Below are positions 1 to 11,246 of a stretch of DNA of 64,000 bases, one piece after another. The stretch is from Candidatus Lambdaproteobacteria bacterium RIFOXYD2_FULL_56_26. GTDB taxonomy: Bacteria; SAR324; XYD2-FULL-50-16. A program made the position numbers and the translations under genes. Positions within the stretch are counted from its first letter, which is position 1. Each line of letters begins with the position of its first letter. Under the pieces are notes generated by a model. The model was not told the origin of the DNA. It did not search any database and saw only the letters and a program-made list of their open reading frames with translations. The stretch is taken from the NCBI GenBank assembly GCA_001783715.1, contig MFNF01000042.1:1-64000 (forward strand). The letters run 5' to 3'.

Positions 1-1013
1 TGGCCGCTGAAATTTTTGAACGCTTTGCATACCTGTTGAGTCTTTCCATGACTATGTCTAGCAGGTTTTATCTCTGCTATGCTAGTCAAGACCCTTTTCT
101 TAATATAACCTAGTCCAACACCTTGACCCTGTGAATTTGCTTCTTTGGGCCAGTGCCCTGAGATTCCATCCTCAAAAATACTCTTTTTTTCATAAGGTTC
201 TATTTTAATGCTTACCATTTGAAATGTGACCTTTATTTCCTCCGGTAGCTCTACAACCCTTATTGTCAAGTCTTCATTTTGCAAAATATACTTAACGGCG
301 TTGTCAAGCAAATGATACAAAGCAACTTGTACTGACGTATAATCAAAATACGCTTTCGCCTGTGTTTTTTCAAAATCAACACGGACCCCTTTATCTGTAA
401 AATCAGCAAAAAACATATAGAGTGCATTCATTAGAACTCGATGAATCTCGTGTATGTCTGCTTTTATTTTTGGTTCTTGTGTGAAAAATAAATTCGCCAC
501 GGTAATTTCAGACCCGATTGCCATGTTATTTTTTGCTATTCTGAAAAGCGCATCTGCAATTCGATCAGACTCCTCCTTGACATGGGCAGATATCAACTTA
601 ATAGCTTCTGCGCGACTTGTCGATCCAGCTTCTGGAGGAATGATTGAATAAATTTCCTGCTTGTTTTTTCCATTAAGGGTGACAAGATTATGGAGAATCT
701 TGCGGTTTCTGTCCTGAAGTGAACTTGCAGTGTCGATTTTCGCCTGTTTAAGTACGCCTACATACGATGATAGGGTCAACGCTATTGCCCGAAATTGTTT
801 GGGATTTCTACTCAGGTATTCTTTATCTGTTGTTGCCGCAAATAAAATGCCACTTTCAGTGGAAATTTTCTCAATACGGACACCGTAACCACTTTTTAAT
901 TCAAGAAGGGGTTTCTCAGAATTTTCAAAATGGGATAAAAGAGCTATTTCTCTGTCTGTAAAGTTACAGAATAATAGGCTGTCATTAGAAAGAATGCGAA
1001 TTCGGATGGCCAT
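1..1013 (-). CDS. Sensor histidine kinase-like protein, 3' end beyond window
   Basis: The minus strand is open from ATG at 1013 to the window edge (337 codons, no stop), so the gene is truncated by the window. The C-terminal half reads as a HATPase_c (GHKL) domain: an N-box LLDNAVKY at residues 235-242 and a glycine-rich GQGVGLGYIKKRV at about 296-308. A candidate phospho-acceptor is His108 in KILHNLVTLNGKNKQEI, followed by helical stretches. The N-terminal 100 residues are an unrecognised soluble sensor region with no membrane segment. The gene starts 11 bases after the corrected stop of the receiver protein, so the two form an apparent kinase/receiver pair. Base composition is clearly more A+T-rich than everything from 1.7 kb onward, which suggests acquisition. 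The substrate and signal are unknown. Confidence 0.8.
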   Translation of the reverse strand, partial: MAIRIRILSNDSLLFCNFTDREIALLSHFENSEKPLLELKSGYGVRIEKISTESGILFAATTDKEYLSRNPKQFRAIALTLSSYVGVLKQAKIDTASSLQDRNRKILHNLVTLNGKNKQEIYSIIPPEAGSTSRAEAIKLISAHVKEESDRIADALFRIAKNNMAIGSEITVANLFFTQEPKIKADIHEIHRVLMNALYMFFADFTDKGVRVDFEKTQAKAYFDYTSVQVALYHLLDNAVKYILQNEDLTIRVVELPEEIKVTFQMVSIKIEPYEKKSIFEDGISGHWPKEANSQGQGVGLGYIKKRVLTSIAEIKPARHSHGKTQQVCKAFKNFSG

Positions 1014-1024
1014 TTATCTTTACC

Positions 1025-1617
1025 TTATTCAATGGTTAATTCTTCCAAAACTTTAAAGAACTCATAAGGCTCTGCGTTTTTTGGTAAAAGCCGATCTGCT
1101 TTCTGTAGAGTTTCATTGAACCTATCACCGTAGGATTCAGCTGAGTAAATTACTAGATGCTTGTTTGGATACCTTTCCTTTAGTGCTTTAGCTAGACCGA
1201 GCCCCTCGTCTTGAAAAGCTAACTTTTTCCCAACCCCCTGAATATCAACAAAAAAACATCTGCATTTCTAACAACGCTTTGATCTAATGCTGCAAGGTCA
1301 GAAACAATTTTTGTGCTTGACCACCCAGCCTTCTTTAGCATGCCAACGACTTTAAACGAGGTATCATCGTCAATAAATAGAATTTGAAGCAATTCCTTTC
1401 GTTTTTTTTCAAACACATTTTTTGCGTTTGAAAGTGCAGGAGGATGAGCCTCGTTTTGTTGGGTTGTATTGGTATTATTGTTGACAATGGTCGTGTTGAT
1501 AGGCGGCGATGGAGGGACCTCCTTTTTGTTTTCAGAACTAGGGAAAAGGAGCCAAGTGAGAAAAGTGACTCCAATACCGCTAAATATCCAAGGCATGTTG
1601 TCCAACAACCAATCCAT
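1025..1617 (-). CDS. Membrane-anchored receiver (REC) domain protein with a homopolymer frameshift
   Basis: The N-terminus has one membrane helix (about residues 9-25, WIFSGIGVTFLTWLLF), then a Pro/Asn-rich linker with an NNNTNTT stretch. A receiver domain follows, starting near residue 77. As read, the frame runs wrong after a run of seven T on the minus strand (A-run 1250-1256) and stops at 1219. Adding one base restores FFVDIQGVGKK and a full REC end, stopping at 1025 (197 aa). The restored protein has the acidic DDD at 83-85, the likely phospho-Asp125, Ser159 and Lys180. There is no DNA-binding output domain, so the output is probably the membrane helix. The frameshift could be a sequencing error, a real mutation or programmed slippage. 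It lies directly upstream of the kinase and shares its A+T-rich composition. Confidence 0.75.
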
Positions 1618-1665
1618 ATGTTCTCCAAGATAACGTTTTGAAAAAAAGACCTACAAACAAAAATT

Positions 1666-2445
1666 CTACCTCCAATAAACCCACACCTTTCCGTCTTTGT
1701 CGCTGGTGAAGATGTAGAGGATCTCGCCGTTGATGGCTTTTTCGTATTGTTTTTGCACTTCCGGGGCGGGGATGTGGTTTTCCGATTGGGAATCTGCCGC
1801 CTGTTGTTCGTCGGCGTAGGTTTTGATGGAGAACTTGGTCACCGCTTCCCCTTCTTTTTCCACTCCGGTCACTTCCAGTTTGGAGGTCTTGCCGTCTTGC
1901 CGCTTGGTTTGAACGATCAGGCCTTCCTTGACCAGGGCCTTTTGGCTGTCCTTTTTTTCCGGGCCAAAGGCTGCTTCGGCCTCAAAGGTGCCGCTGGTGC
2001 TGAAGGTCACGTTTTCGGTGTCCCCTTTGGGCCAAGCCAGGGAGTAGCCCTCGCCGCCCCAGGTGAACTCGGTGGTTTCGCCCCGTTGGCGCAGGTTGAA
2101 CTGGATTCCCTGGATGCGGATGATCGGGAATTTTTCCTTGGGGTGCATTTTTTCGTATTCCACGGTCAGGGTGTCCTTACCGCTGACCACCTGCTTGTAG
2201 GACTGGGGGACCAACAGGACCTTTTTAGGGCCTTCGGCAATCGGTTGGTTTTTGGAGTTTGCCGGAACGGCGGCATGGTCGGAGGTGATTTCCCCTTCTG
2301 CCGCTCCTGGGTCACTGCCGTTCTTGGCGGCGGCGGCTTTGGGGGCCGGTTCGGCCTTGGTTGCCTTCTTGGGGGTTTCGGCGGCGTAAACTGCCGGGGC
2401 AAAGGCCAACAGCAAGGCCAAAATCCAGGTTGTCCGTGACTTCAT
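1666..2445 (-). CDS. Exported hypothetical protein
   Basis: A 259-residue protein with a clear Sec signal peptide (ILALLLAFAPAVYA, cleavage near residue 21). A Lys/Ala/Pro-rich low-complexity stretch runs to about residue 70, followed by a beta-rich domain with alternating polar and hydrophobic strands ending in GKVWVYWR. I do not recognise the family. It starts 10 bases after the stop of the phosphohexomutase and is probably co-transcribed with it. Its G+C matches the chromosome, unlike the receiver gene 48 bases further on, so the composition boundary falls between them. It is likely periplasmic or outer-membrane associated. Confidence 0.72.
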   Translation of the reverse strand: MKSRTTWILALLLAFAPAVYAAETPKKATKAEPAPKAAAAKNGSDPGAAEGEITSDHAAVPANSKNQPIAEGPKKVLLVPQSYKQVVSGKDTLTVEYEKMHPKEKFPIIRIQGIQFNLRQRGETTEFTWGGEGYSLAWPKGDTENVTFSTSGTFEAEAAFGPEKKDSQKALVKEGLIVQTKRQDGKTSKLEVTGVEKEGEAVTKFSIKTYADEQQAADSQSENHIPAPEVQKQYEKAINGEILYIFTSDKDGKVWVYWR

Positions 2446-2455
2446 CTTGTCTCCA

Positions 2456-4453
2456 TCAAAGTTTGGGATCGCTTCCTTTTAACAAGGCCTTGCCCTTTTG
2501 AGCAATCACGAATCCATCTTGGCTCCGTTCAATCAGCCCCTGCTTGGCCTCCATTTCCTTTAGGACCCGTTCCACCGGAAGCCCCGACGCAGGGAGCGAT
2601 TTGGGGTCTTGCCCTTGGGCAATGGCGGCCAGAAGCCTGGCTTCCAGCTGGGCCAAAGGGTTGGCGGAGTTTTTGAGGCCCCGGAGCAAAAGGAGGTGTA
2701 AGGCCTGGGCCAATTGGCCCAGCTTTTGGGTCCCCGAGAGTGGCCCCCGCAGGTACAAGGCGGACTTGTCCTCGGTCCCCGAGTTGCGGACAAAAACCGC
2801 TCCGTAGGGGGTACCGTTTTCCGAAAGGTGGCAAAAGAGCAGGCTCGGCTCTTCTCCGAAGGCCTGGAATTGGCCGGTAAAGCCTTCGCCCAGGCAGCTG
2901 GGCAAGAGGGAGAGGATTTGGGCCGAAAGAGTCTCTCGGAAGGCCTGCCCAGGTTCCAGCCGGGACTTGTCCACATAATAGACGTAAAAGGTTTCTTTCA
3001 TCCCCCCGGCAAAGGGGTGGGCCAGGGTTTGGCCGTCCTTGACCTTGGCCATGGCGGCCAGGCTGTTGAGCCCCGCCTTGAGGCCGTTGCCCGCAAAACC
3101 GGGGAAGGGGCGGTGGAGCCAAAAGGGGCTCAAGGCATGGCCCGATTCTTCCAGGCCCAAGGCAAAGTCCAAGGGGCCACTGGGGGTTTGCGGCCCCTGG
3201 GCCAAGGCGGCTTCAAACCGAACGGTCAGGTCCAAGGCCGAAGCGGCAGGGTTCTGCTGCCAAGCTTCCAGGTAATCCCAAAGCTCTTGGTTTTTGGTCC
3301 CCAAGGCCAAACGGGAACGGAGCACCGAGGCCACCGCCCGGACCAGCAACCACTTGTCCCCCACCCCGGTCAGGGTTTCCTGGAACCCCAGGGCCTTAAC
3401 CGCTTGGCCCAAGAGCAGGTCGCTTTCCACGGTAAAGGCGAAGCTGCGGCCCCCTGCCCCTTGGGTCTGGGCAAGATATTGGCCCAGGTGGAAGCCCAGT
3501 AGGTCCCCGGAGCTGACCCAGGCCTTTTGGCTTTTGGGGTCGTAGTCGAGCCGGTAACAACGGTCGCCGTCCCCATCAAAGGCCAGACCTACCAACCGGA
3601 CCGATCCGTCCCAGATTTCTGACCGCCCGGTTTGGGCAAAAAATTCGGCCAAAAAACGGTTGGCCGGATACCGCCGGGCCAAGTCGTTTTGGGTAATCGA
3701 TTCTTGGCCTTCCAGGTCGGTGACCCCGCAGTTTTGGTTGATCGGTCCTTCCAGGTTGGTGAGAATCAATTCCCTGAGCCCTAACCCTCCAAGCAAAGGT
3801 TCCACCACCGAGGCCGCCGCCCCCTTGGAGGCATCGATCACCAAAAGATGGTCCTTCAGGTCCATCCCCGCCGTGATCCAGCTGTTTTTTGGGTCCAAGC
3901 TGGATTCCACAAAAAAGGCCCAGGCCTCTTCATGGACCCCGATCATCTCCCCTTGGGGCTCAATCCGGCTGAAGTCCAGGTCCTTGTAGGCATAAAGCTT
4001 GGTGGTCAGCCTTTGGTCGTCTTGGGGCAGGAACTTGAGCCCAAAGCCGGGCAAAAACAATTTGATCCCGTTCTGGTCGGCCGGGTTGTGGCTGGCGGTC
4101 AACATGGCTCCCGCCCGGCAGCCTTTTTCCATCATGTACAACGGCACCGCCGGGGTGGGCAAAATCCCCAGGCCCAAAACGGTCAGCCCCGCTTTGCGCA
4201 GGCCCTGGACAAAGGCGGAATCAAACCGCCCCGCCTCGTCCCGGCCATCCCAGCCGACCGCCACCTTGTCCCCCTGCCGGGCCAAGCGGGTCTCCAACAG
4301 CAGTTGGCCAAAGGCGTAGCCATAAAGCTCAAAAAAGGCGGGGGTCAAAAACCCCTCTTCCACAAAGGTGGCCACCGGGTCCTTGGAGCCCAATTCGGCT
4401 TTGACCCGGCCCCGAACGCCATCGGTGCCCTGCAAGCGGAGTAGATTGGTCAT
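2456..4453 (-). CDS. Phosphoglucomutase/phosphomannomutase family (alpha-D-phosphohexomutase)
   Basis: Interconverts hexose 1- and 6-phosphates in the cytoplasm. The four-domain family signatures are present in order: LQGTDGVRGR near the N-terminus, the phosphoserine loop LTASHNPADQNGIK, the metal loop FDGDGDRC, the sugar-binding EESGHA, and the phosphate-binding RNSGTEDKSALYLRG. I chose ATG 4453 (MTNLLRLQG) because AGGA lies just upstream and the family normally begins at this motif; ATGs at 4471 and 4531 are alternatives. At about 665 residues it is longer than the usual 450-550. It carries an insertion after the metal domain (around GTKNQELWDYLEAW) and a roughly 60-residue helical C-terminal extension. 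Sugar specificity cannot be decided. Divergent from trpS. Confidence 0.9.
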   Translation of the reverse strand: MTNLLRLQGTDGVRGRVKAELGSKDPVATFVEEGFLTPAFFELYGYAFGQLLLETRLARQGDKVAVGWDGRDEAGRFDSAFVQGLRKAGLTVLGLGILPTPAVPLYMMEKGCRAGAMLTASHNPADQNGIKLFLPGFGLKFLPQDDQRLTTKLYAYKDLDFSRIEPQGEMIGVHEEAWAFFVESSLDPKNSWITAGMDLKDHLLVIDASKGAAASVVEPLLGGLGLRELILTNLEGPINQNCGVTDLEGQESITQNDLARRYPANRFLAEFFAQTGRSEIWDGSVRLVGLAFDGDGDRCYRLDYDPKSQKAWVSSGDLLGFHLGQYLAQTQGAGGRSFAFTVESDLLLGQAVKALGFQETLTGVGDKWLLVRAVASVLRSRLALGTKNQELWDYLEAWQQNPAASALDLTVRFEAALAQGPQTPSGPLDFALGLEESGHALSPFWLHRPFPGFAGNGLKAGLNSLAAMAKVKDGQTLAHPFAGGMKETFYVYYVDKSRLEPGQAFRETLSAQILSLLPSCLGEGFTGQFQAFGEEPSLLFCHLSENGTPYGAVFVRNSGTEDKSALYLRGPLSGTQKLGQLAQALHLLLLRGLKNSANPLAQLEARLLAAIAQGQDPKSLPASGLPVERVLKEMEAKQGLIERSQDGFVIAQKGKALLKGSDPKL

Positions 4454-4589
4454 ATTCGTCCTGTAACGCATAAGGGGGAGGGGCTTGGTAGGTAAAAGGT
4501 AGAAGGCTTTTTGGGATTTGTCTATTTTCAATCCTGGTTGAATCGGCTACAAAGGAAGACTTAAAAACCCGTCCGTCCGTGAAACGACC

Positions 4590-8202: not shown

Positions 8203-8919
8203 ATGAAAAGAATCGTTTTTTTGCTCTGCCTTTTTTGCTGGACTCTGCCCCTTGCCTGGGCCCAAGACGAGAATTTGCCTGCCGCCCAGGAGCCCCAGAC
8301 CCTGGAACTCCCTGTAGCCGAGGCCAAATCCCCCATTTTGGAACTCAAGGAAGGGTACCAGATCTACCCCGTGGACCGGCTGGGAAACAGTCTCTACCAC
8401 AACAAGGAGCGAATTTTTTCAAGACAGGGTTTTTCGATTCGTGGTATATTGCCGATCAAGCAGGGCCTGATGGTTTGGGGCCAAGATGCCGAAGAAGCCA
8501 AGAAGATGGACTTCGTGGAAGCCGAAGGCCAAGACGGCACCTTGACCGCCCTCGAAGGCGGTTGCTACAAACTCCAGCTCAAGGGCGGGATCACTAGGCT
8601 GTACCAGCTGTTGCCAAACGGCGTGATCTCCGACCTGCTGCCGACCTCCAACACGGCGGGCAATCTGGTGTACAATGGCAAGGACCTGGTCGCCTTCAGC
8701 CACATCACCGGCGGCCAGCAGATCCAAAGCCCGGAGGGGAAAACGCTTTATCAGTACAGCTTCAAGTTGCATTGGGTGAAATTGGGCAAGGAGGACGTGG
8801 TCCAACTGCCCAAGACCTACACCGGCTACAGCACGGAGCTGAATCTGCATTGGATCAAGGAGAACCAATTGCAGGTGACCAATGGAGATGGACAGGTTGA
8901 CCGCCTGACGCTCCGTTAA
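8203..8919 (+). CDS. Exported hypothetical protein
   Basis: A 238-residue protein with a clean signal peptide (IVFLLCLFCWTLPLAWAQ) and a beta-rich periplasmic domain with repeated short strand/turn units (for example YKLQLKGGITRLYQLLPNG). The family is not recognised. It is preceded by a short GCCCAG/CTGGGC hairpin at 8161-8180, 22 bases before the start, and followed 14 bases later by the DksA-type gene, so it may be the first cistron of that unit. Confidence 0.72.
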   Translation: MKRIVFLLCLFCWTLPLAWAQDENLPAAQEPQTLELPVAEAKSPILELKEGYQIYPVDRLGNSLYHNKERIFSRQGFSIRGILPIKQGLMVWGQDAEEAKKMDFVEAEGQDGTLTALEGGCYKLQLKGGITRLYQLLPNGVISDLLPTSNTAGNLVYNGKDLVAFSHITGGQQIQSPEGKTLYQYSFKLHWVKLGKEDVVQLPKTYTGYSTELNLHWIKENQLQVTNGDGQVDRLTLR

Positions 8920-8933
8920 CTTTTGGAGGTAAA

Positions 8934-9323
8934 ATGGAGTTCGATGAAACCTCTGCTGAGCTAAGCCCCCAAGAATACGAACACTTTAAGGCCAAGCTGC
9001 AAGAACAGCTGGGCGCATTGATGGTCGATTCGGACGGAACTGTGCAGGAAATGCAGGGAGCAGATCTGGAATTTCCCGATCCCGGAGACCGGGCTACTTA
9101 CGAGTTTGAGCGGAACACCACCTTGCGCATCCGGGACCGGGAACGCAAACTGGCCAAGAAGGTCAGTCAGGCGATTGAGCGGTTGGAGGCAGGGACCTAC
9201 AACGAATGCGAAGAGTGCGGTGAGCCAATCGGCAAAAAGCGGCTGGACGCAAGACCGGTGACCACCCTTTGCATCCTTTGCAAAGAGTCCCAGGAGCAGC
9301 AAGAGCACATCCGTAACTCCTAG
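8934..9323 (+). CDS. DksA/TraR family zinc-finger transcription factor
   Basis: A 129-aa protein with a helical N-terminal coiled coil and a C-terminal C4 zinc finger: CEECGEPI, then CILCKESQ after 14 residues. This matches DksA/TraR, which bind the RNA polymerase secondary channel with ppGpp. The region before the finger (IRDRERKLAKKVSQAIERLEAGTYNECEECG) is canonical. A strong RBS, GGAGG, lies seven bases before ATG. It is shorter than E. coli DksA (151 aa), so it may be a DksA paralogue rather than the global regulator. Confidence 0.86.
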   Translation: MEFDETSAELSPQEYEHFKAKLQEQLGALMVDSDGTVQEMQGADLEFPDPGDRATYEFERNTTLRIRDRERKLAKKVSQAIERLEAGTYNECEECGEPIGKKRLDARPVTTLCILCKESQEQQEHIRNS

Positions 9324-9353
9324 GGCTGACCTTCACTATAGAGCTGTTTGTTT

Positions 9354-11246
9354 ATGCGCCTTTCCACCCGGCTGATTCAATTTGAACATCTGCTCAAGCG
9401 TCACCAGAGCTTGGGGGGCCGGGAGATCGGGGCCTTTGCCTCGATCCGGCGGGAGATCAAGGAGCTGGAACGGCAGATCGACATCCTGATCCTGGCCGGG
9501 TCGGAGCTGAACGACACCATGAAGGACCGGCGCAACGGAATGGAGATCATTCTCAATTCCGCCTGCAAGCTGACCAACGCCGACGGAGGAACCCTCTACA
9601 TGATTGCGGAGGAGTACTTCGACGAACCGCTCAACCCCGGTGAACTCAAGGCCACCTACCTCAACTTTGAAGTGCTGCAAAACACCACCATGGGGGTTTT
9701 GCTGCAACGAAAAAGCGACGAAGAATTTTTTCTCCCCCCGGTGCCCATGCAGGTGGGCGGGGTCAAGAACCTCAACAACGTCTCCGCCTACTGTGCCAAT
9801 ACCGGGCAGGTGATCAACATCGCAGACGTTTACAATGCCCAGGGGTTCGACTTCTCGGGGACCCGCAAATACGATGAACAGACCGGCTACCGCAGCAAAT
9901 CTATGCTGGTGATCCCCTTGCGGGACCATGAAAACGAGATCATCGGGGTTTTGCAGCTGATCAATCGGAAAAAGGACAATGGCGAGGTGATCCCCTTTGC
10001 CCCGGCCGACCAAGCGGTGGTCCAGGCGATCAGTTACCAGGCCGCAGTTTCCTTGACCACCGAAAAACTGGTCGGCGAACAACGGGCGCTCTTTGCCGCT
10101 TTTGTTCAGGTCTTGGCCGAAGGACTGGGCGAAAAAAGCCCCTACAACTTTGGGCACATCAACCGGGTGGCCCATCTGACCGAGATCATCGCCGGAGCGA
10201 TCAACCAATACGACCAAGGCCCTTACGCCAACCTGGGCTTCAACCAGGACCAGATGGACGAGCTTCGTCTGGCCGGGTGGATGCACGACATCGGCAAACT
10301 GACCACCCCCGAAAACGTGGTCAGCAAACAGCTGAAGCTGGAGGTTTTGGCCGACCGGTTTGAGCTGGTGGTCCAGCGATACAATTCCAAGATCAAGGAC
10401 CTGGAGATTGAGCTGCTGCAAGCCAAGGTGAAGGCCTTGGAGACCGGCACCAACCCCGAGGAAATCCGAGCGCTGACCGAGAAGACCAATGGCGAGATCA
10501 AGGGGTTGGAACAGGAATTGGTTGGCCTGATGAGCTTCAACTTTGGCGGCGAATTTATGGCCGATGAAAAAATTGCCGCCATCAAGAGCGCTGCCCAAAA
10601 GACAGCCACCCAACACTTTAAGGTCCAGTTTGAGCAGGGGATCAACACTCCCTACGTGGGCAAGGTGGAACTGTTGGCCAACCCGGTCCAGGAACCGCTG
10701 TTGACCCAATTGGAGCAAGACCTGCTTTCGATCAAAAAGGGAACCTTGTCCGAAGCGGAGCGGCAAATCATCAATGACCATGCGGACCGCAGCTGGCGTT
10801 GGCTGTTCAAGCTGCCTTTCCCGCGTAAGATGCTGAAGCTGCCGCTTTATTCCGCCGCCCACCACGAAACCCTCAACGGCACCGGTTACCCCCACAAGTT
10901 GCGGGCCAACCAACTGCCTGCCCAGGCGAGGATCATCGCCGTGGTGGACATTTTCGAGGCTTTGACCGCCAACGACCGGCCCTACAAAAAACCGATGCCC
11001 TTGGCCAAGGCCCTGGATATCTTGGGCTTTATGGTCAAGGATGGGCACCTGGACCCGGAGATCTGCAAGATCTTCCTGCTTTCGGGGCAATGTGAAGCTT
11101 GGGCCAATGCCAACCTCTTGCCCGAACAGTTGGGTCCCTTGGACCTGAAAGGCTGGGTCGAGCGGTTTTACCCCGCCCACTTCGACCCGGACCTCCCCGC
11201 CTACCAAGCCGCTCAACTCGCCCGTTCCGAACAGGCCCAAGAATGA
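9354..11246 (+). CDS. GAF/HD-GYP domain cyclic-di-GMP phosphodiesterase
   Basis: Likely hydrolyses c-di-GMP. A short coiled coil leads into a GAF sensor domain (about residues 60-240, including STGQVINIADVYNA-type strands and SMLVIPLRDHENEIIGVLQLIN). The HD-GYP domain follows: the first metal His in HINRVAHLTE, HDIGK at about 311, HHETLNGTGYP at about 502 and the DIFEALTANDRPYKK helix. The spacing between HDIGK and HHE is about 190 residues, far above the usual 55-60. It is filled by a coiled-coil insertion rich in Glu/Lys/Leu. ATG 9354 is preferred to the upstream TTG. Its ATGA end overlaps the next gene. Confidence 0.92.
   Translation: MRLSTRLIQFEHLLKRHQSLGGREIGAFASIRREIKELERQIDILILAGSELNDTMKDRRNGMEIILNSACKLTNADGGTLYMIAEEYFDEPLNPGELKATYLNFEVLQNTTMGVLLQRKSDEEFFLPPVPMQVGGVKNLNNVSAYCANTGQVINIADVYNAQGFDFSGTRKYDEQTGYRSKSMLVIPLRDHENEIIGVLQLINRKKDNGEVIPFAPADQAVVQAISYQAAVSLTTEKLVGEQRALFAAFVQVLAEGLGEKSPYNFGHINRVAHLTEIIAGAINQYDQGPYANLGFNQDQMDELRLAGWMHDIGKLTTPENVVSKQLKLEVLADRFELVVQRYNSKIKDLEIELLQAKVKALETGTNPEEIRALTEKTNGEIKGLEQELVGLMSFNFGGEFMADEKIAAIKSAAQKTATQHFKVQFEQGINTPYVGKVELLANPVQEPLLTQLEQDLLSIKKGTLSEAERQIINDHADRSWRWLFKLPFPRKMLKLPLYSAAHHETLNGTGYPHKLRANQLPAQARIIAVVDIFEALTANDRPYKKPMPLAKALDILGFMVKDGHLDPEICKIFLLSGQCEAWANANLLPEQLGPLDLKGWVERFYPAHFDPDLPAYQAAQLARSEQAQE

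Follow-up and report, generated by a model that had tools for sequence, protein, structure and literature searches.

About the first 1.7 kb of the window, by which we mean the whole 64,000-nucleotide stretch of Candidatus Lambdaproteobacteria bacterium RIFOXYD2_FULL_56_26 analysed here (contig MFNF01000042.1, designated C42 below), probably represents an inactivated copy of a horizontally acquired two-gene phosphorelay module, PDC-M43, which most likely serves as an anti-phage system that acts at the membrane after phosphorylation. Both genes are named by PADLOC-DB 2.0.0, the kinase as PDC-M43B and the receiver as PDC-M43A (Table 1), and judged by these profile matches it appears nearly certain that the window pair belongs to this family. 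The abbreviation PDC stands for "phage defence candidate" in papers using PADLOC (passage in PMC11514479). PDC-M43 is an unvalidated computational prediction of phage defence, and a literature search that had subscription journals mostly outside its range revealed neither a paper naming PDC-M43 nor a phage-protection test of the pair. The window copy is a decayed member of this known but uncharacterised candidate defence family, and it is dead or dying.

The insert, its chromosomal site and its damage

The genome of the window comprises 3.08 Mb in 68 contigs, and position 1 of the window is the first base of contig C42. Base composition switches sharply near 1.65 kb, as had been noticed from the letters alone: the G+C content is 37-40% over positions 1-1750 and 55-65% beyond. 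The A+T-rich insert consists of window positions 95-1665 and about 120 bases on a second contig, C16, and its content is exactly two genes on the minus strand, a receiver gene followed by a soluble histidine-kinase-like gene; no integrase and no further cargo were seen in it. Past base 240, contig C16 is ordinary chromosome with housekeeping-looking genes and a G+C content of 53-62%, and a RelA/SpoT-like gene is located at C16:217-1665. The insert is therefore only about 1.7 kb in size and limited to two genes. The sequence-only reading had spoken of an A+T-rich island and had proposed to extend it leftwards; the A+T richness stands, but the island shrinks to these two genes, and the extension via C16 leads into ordinary chromosome and not into a defence island, so that half of the reading's own counter-case, a normal chromosomal operon upstream, applies.

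The insert sits between convergent chromosomal genes. In the relative G005, which belongs to the same family, the RelA/SpoT-like gene directly adjoins the conserved 259-aa gene in tail-to-tail orientation, and this arrangement represents the empty site. In G003, also of the same family, the equivalent gap contains three other genes (106, 297, and 450 aa; L102:4105-7000) and no kinase pair, which implies repeated gain or loss of genes at this spot. In the remaining seven family members, the flank markers are split between contigs, or else the RelA/SpoT-like gene has no more than a distant match. Ordinary chromosomal flanks would fit an ordinary lineage-specific two-component remnant of the chromosome that is A+T-rich by chance, an idea that deserves next to no credence and is already refuted by the sharp composition step, the direct empty site in G005, the occurrence of relatives of the pair in distant phyla, and the absence of the kinase from 97 other sampled genomes, nine of the same family among them. 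The empty site and this distribution also rule out a housekeeping origin. The cassette is horizontally acquired, is placed between two conserved housekeeping-type genes, and is now inactivated.

Inactivation of the kinase gene was caused by a multicopy insertion sequence, one end of which forms the beginning of the window. Counting the window copy, the genome contains bases 1-94 at 14 places, all of them at contig ends, and the C-terminal 31 residues of the kinase open reading frame (3-1013, minus strand) are encoded by the insertion sequence and not by the kinase. A search of the genome with the PDC-M43B model located the real C-terminus at C16:93-234, where the opposite end of the element abuts the very eight bases that border it in the window (C16:93-100 versus window 95-102). 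Joining of the flanks, which rests on the target duplication and the reading frame and not on reads across C16, the insertion, and C42, gives an uninterrupted kinase of 350 residues. An alignment was obtained with each of the 25 homologues compared, and the three best matches extend to residues 339, 350, and 343. The interior of the element was not found in the assembly, and searches with Pfam DDE_5 and IS1595 gave no match, probably because only its ends are assembled; the peptide on the C16 side may resemble IS1595 transposases, a likeness that we do not put forward as an assignment. The insertion sequence fragments the assembly, and each of its 14 termini at contig ends abuts a different, mostly A+T-rich target. 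Candidates for further kinase copies in the same genome turned out to be the insertion-sequence end or generic ATPase domains of other kinases. The kinase profile matches 54 places in this genome (G000), nearly all of which are generic histidine-kinase ATPase domains, and this number reflects a large signalling repertoire for 3.08 Mb.

The receiver gene is damaged as well. Its in-frame part (1219-1617, minus strand, 132 aa) ends in a short out-of-frame tail, and the remainder of the conserved domain can be read without interruption in a different frame, from roughly position 1258 down to 1025. The break lies within a run of A bases, so that a sequence error is possible. With the kinase gene split and the receiver frame broken, the window copy is not an intact expressible pair. 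A soluble kinase and a receiver with a single membrane helix and an Asn-rich linker, as first described, are indeed encoded, but the kinase is not whole and the receiver reading frame stops early.

Table 1 Features of the insert and its flanks in the window
Feature	Position	Strand	Remarks
End of multicopy insertion sequence interrupting the kinase gene; terminus GGGTC... on the kinase strand; also end of contig C42	1..94	-	Terminus at 14 contig ends
8-bp target-site duplication	95..102	.	Identical 8 bases at C16:93-100
Kinase gene, codons 1-306 (PDC-M43B)	95..1013	-	PADLOC E=2.3e-81; the other 44 codons lie on contig C16
Receiver gene (PDC-M43A): membrane helix, linker, CheY-like receiver	1025..1617	-	PADLOC E=7.7e-29 over the 132 aa in frame; frame broken near 1255
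Asn/Ser/Thr-rich linker, receiver residues 28-78	1384..1536	-	Between helix and receiver domain
Predicted membrane helix of receiver, residues 11-27	1537..1587	-	Hydropathy; present in 27/27 receivers
Flank, outside cassette: conserved 259-aa chromosomal gene	1666..2445	-	Adjoins RelA/SpoT-like gene directly in relative G005
Flank, outside cassette: phosphomannomutase/phosphoglucomutase-like gene (named by inspection)	2456..4531	-	Marker for locating the empty site in relatives

Domain composition of the kinase and the receiver

The window kinase, of the GHKL/histidine-kinase type, is composed of an N-terminal sensor-like domain, a dimerization and histidine-phosphotransfer (DHp) helix with His108-Asn109, an N box with Asn238/Lys241, an atypical G1 box (Met266-x-Ser268), and a G2 box at residues 296-300. 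Pfam recognized only HATPase_c, at E=1.7e-5 and thereby narrowly short of the curated cut-off, and the match to the PDC-M43B model spans residues 4-318 of the open reading frame. In the structure model of the homologous kinase from locus L058 (pLDDT 86), the N-terminus is an alpha/beta domain of some 65 residues, after which come a long helix with the His-Asn pair and a CA domain, and the nearest solved folds are histidine kinases including HK853 and CusS. His108/Asn109, the N-box residues Asn238/Lys241, and the G2 glycines are invariant in all 26 kinases inspected. The G1 box reads Met-x-Ser rather than Asp/Asn-x-Gly in 29 of 29 kinases, these residues being aligned against the D-T-G of SrrB and the N-P-G and D-E-G of two other kinases. 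The aspartate of the G1 box in histidine kinases holds the adenine; since the usual Asp/Asn is missing here, the use of ATP by the kinase cannot be assumed. A Cys-rich motif, CxxC...CP.Y...RR.GK...FLCC, is present in the N-terminal domain of Bacteroidota-type and some other kinases (L065-L068, L070-L077), and the proteobacterial kinases of the family are devoid of it. The motif suggests a metal- or redox-binding sensor variant.

The receiver proteins comprise 183-236 aa and consist of a helix, a linker, and the receiver domain, with no effector enzyme domain such as PNP. A hydrophobic segment ahead of a flexible linker was found in all 27 receivers checked, that of the window included, and most of the corresponding linker stretch in the L058 model has a pLDDT under 50. 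This model displays a CheY-like fold (pLDDT 79.5; nearest solved folds include NtrX) and contains helix, linker, and receiver only, without a DNA-binding output; in the window proteins, too, no DNA-binding domain was detected by Pfam, PADLOC, or NCBIfam, in agreement with the sequence-only reading. Asp91, Asp92, Asp133, Ser167, and Lys188 (L058 numbering), that is, the acidic pair, the phosphoacceptor aspartate, the serine, and the lysine, are invariant in 26 of 26 receivers. The receivers of L066 and L073 have two membrane helices instead of one with the receiver domain still conserved; a third such count was an artefact of upstream start choice.

Distribution, co-inheritance and mobile contexts

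Searches that favoured intact genes yielded 28 other complete pairs with the same gene order, which are located on three plasmids, at four phage or prophage loci, and on scattered chromosomes, and both genes are open in all of them. The receiver gene directly precedes the kinase gene in all 25 loci examined, and the same holds for a Kosakonia plasmid and two further viral contigs; the window pair (1025-1617, then 95-1013, minus strand) conforms to this order. The kinase occurs in 3 of 72,556 plasmid records and at 21 loci among 84,980 species genomes, the latter number coming from a pattern scan that must miss many loci. Two DNA-level searches of E. coli returned the same single genome of 5,426, and a third one with the plasmid variant as query found none. 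These numbers, together with the 0 of 97 other sampled genomes, do not describe a widespread housekeeping two-component system, the case that the first reading had named as refuting it. Among viral contigs, a single-protein search gave no match and alignment searches yielded first a single locus and later three, with the first contig recurring among these. Phage records contained one weak, unannotated match per kinase query and none for the receiver query.

The mean identity is 58% for the receiver domain, 40% for the kinase, and 24% for helix plus linker. Kinase and receiver distances are correlated over 25 pairs (r=0.89; reached by 0 of 2000 permutations), as expected of partners inherited together. 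The G+C content of the pair is below the locus average in 22 of 22 loci. No neighbour family was common to at least three of these 22 loci among 255 open reading frames, which means that the neighbourhood conceals no third component.

The compact two-gene operon, with intergenic distances of -62 to +14 nt in the 25 loci (mechanical start choice), and its presence on small and conjugative plasmids and on phages could also be explained by a module for mobile-element maintenance or superinfection exclusion, in which kinase and receiver restrain each other and loss or imbalance is toxic. We consider this very unlikely, as neither protein is of a known toxin class and both have conserved phosphotransfer residues, which points to signalling; moreover, the genome of the window keeps a receiver gene beside a disrupted kinase gene, although this receiver gene is broken, too.

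Several copies occupy phage positions. In E. coli DETEC-P881, nothing except the pair is annotated between the genes for the replication endonuclease and the portal protein of a P2-like prophage, and on the viral contigs L079 and L106 it is located between GPA (E=8e-116 and 4.5e-100, respectively) and the portal gene (E=1.3e-12 and 1e-16). Three P2-like phages or prophages thus hold the pair exactly in the P2 gpA-gpQ interval. The interval between GPA and the portal gene is described as the P2 defence hotspot in two reports (Rousset et al., PMC9122126; Vassallo et al., PMC9519451). Another phage-like contig, L104, contains a portal gene, and a transposase-like gene follows the pair. The same hotspot of L106 also harbours, at 8546-10094, two neighbouring genes, one DprA-like and one with a phosphoribosyltransferase domain, which may form another candidate pair for defence. 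The 6.2-kb plasmid of Kosakonia cowanii (L056) carries a Rop-like gene and, as its main cargo, the kinase-receiver pair with little else; its kinase gene spans the start of the plasmid record and is unannotated. On the plasmids of Shewanella and E. coli, a diadenylate cyclase gene and a NACHT-domain gene, respectively, occur at a distance of a few kb from the pair (L054:1953-2399; L055:38-1975).

Co-occurrence with defence genes, one of the checks initially suggested, was found in part. The PADLOC scan covered 40 of the 44 genes directly adjacent to the pair in 22 genome or viral loci (the omitted ones being three short open reading frames and the GPA gene of L079), and five of them, in four loci, matched known or candidate defence models, namely a type I specificity subunit, a type I restriction enzyme, Drt2, a UG13a reverse transcriptase, and PDC-S48; the adjacent genes tested in the other 18 loci gave no match. 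In the control, at least two of 57 window genes matched PADLOC, all of them Pycsar-cyclase models, and this control comes from a different genome than the 22 loci. Pooled PADLOC and Pfam scans of 130 neighbours lacked a per-gene assignment and were excluded from the counts. Since the excess among neighbours is small and the control stems from another genome, the neighbour enrichment lends weak support to defence, and more weight is placed on hotspot positions and mobility.

The 18 loci without a match are, together with the ordinary kinase and receiver folds, compatible with a mobile stress- or envelope-sensing two-component system in which membrane proteins of the host receive the signal of the kinase via the membrane-bound receiver; an envelope response would be well served by a kinase in solution and a receiver in the membrane. 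This explanation seems rather unlikely in view of the sporadic mobile distribution, which includes three P2 hotspots and a plasmid of 6.2 kb that carries little else, and of the lack of a conserved target gene nearby. A defence function of the family is, in our judgement, likely. The initial observation was largely right, and the suggestion of a defence module drawn from it is partly supported, on better grounds than sequence alone could offer, by the PDC-M43 matches, the P2 hotspots, the plasmids, and the four loci beside defence genes, but the copy in which it was noticed is broken.

Relation to known systems and proposed mechanism

The window copy has the two-gene make-up of PDC-M43 and matches both of its models, and differs from it by the interruption and the frameshift. 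With classical two-component systems of the HK853/RR468 type, the pair shares the DHp and CA folds, the receiver fold, and the phosphotransfer residues (phosphoacceptor histidine in 26 of 26 kinases, aspartate and lysine in 26 of 26 receivers); it is set apart by the combination of a soluble kinase with a membrane-bound receiver, the lack of a DNA-binding output, and the Met-x-Ser motif in G1. Detocs (DtcA, DtcB, DtcC) is alike in outline, being a defensive histidine kinase that signals to receiver proteins. As described (PMC11249213, PMC11728103), Detocs consists of three genes, which encode a kinase, a buffer protein that absorbs phosphate, and a response regulator, and is best known with an ATP-cleaving PNP effector. 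The present family, in contrast, has two genes, no conserved third gene in 22 loci, and a membrane helix as the only added domain, and on gene number and the absence of a PNP-type effector it falls outside Detocs as described there. HATPase and REC domains are listed among the predicted, non-validated defence systems in a figure legend of DefensePredictor (PMC13092281), and going by this legend the system may or may not be a PDC-M43-type pair.

In intact relatives, the soluble kinase would sense an infection cue via its N-terminal domain and phosphorylate its own conserved histidine, from which the phosphoryl group would pass to the conserved aspartate of the receiver. The receiver, held by the flexible linker to a helix in the inner membrane, might then dimerise or cluster, and its membrane segments would perturb the lipid bilayer or a target located in it, thereby stopping the infected cell. 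As the kinase is soluble, the receiver is membrane-bound, and DNA-binding and enzyme domains as well as a third gene are missing, the membrane segment of the tethered receiver is the best candidate for the output. The early guess that the helix might be the output has gained from its presence in every receiver checked, but the helix may be only an anchor, and membrane output is a tentative proposal that we would put at somewhat below even. In a distinctly unlikely variant, the receiver itself kills because phosphorylation clusters its single helices into a pore or a membrane-disrupting array, and the Met-x-Ser kinase responds to a non-ATP nucleotide or to nucleotide depletion, with phage-induced changes of the nucleotide pool as trigger.

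The window copy shows such a cassette lodged between conserved genes of the chromosome, its decay having begun; the copies on P2 prophages and small plasmids are compact and suited to direct testing. If intact relatives protect against phage, the pair would represent a minimal two-gene phosphorelay immunity whose output resides in a membrane-tethered receiver, without a separate effector enzyme, and its kinase would exemplify a nucleotide pocket that has been rebuilt.
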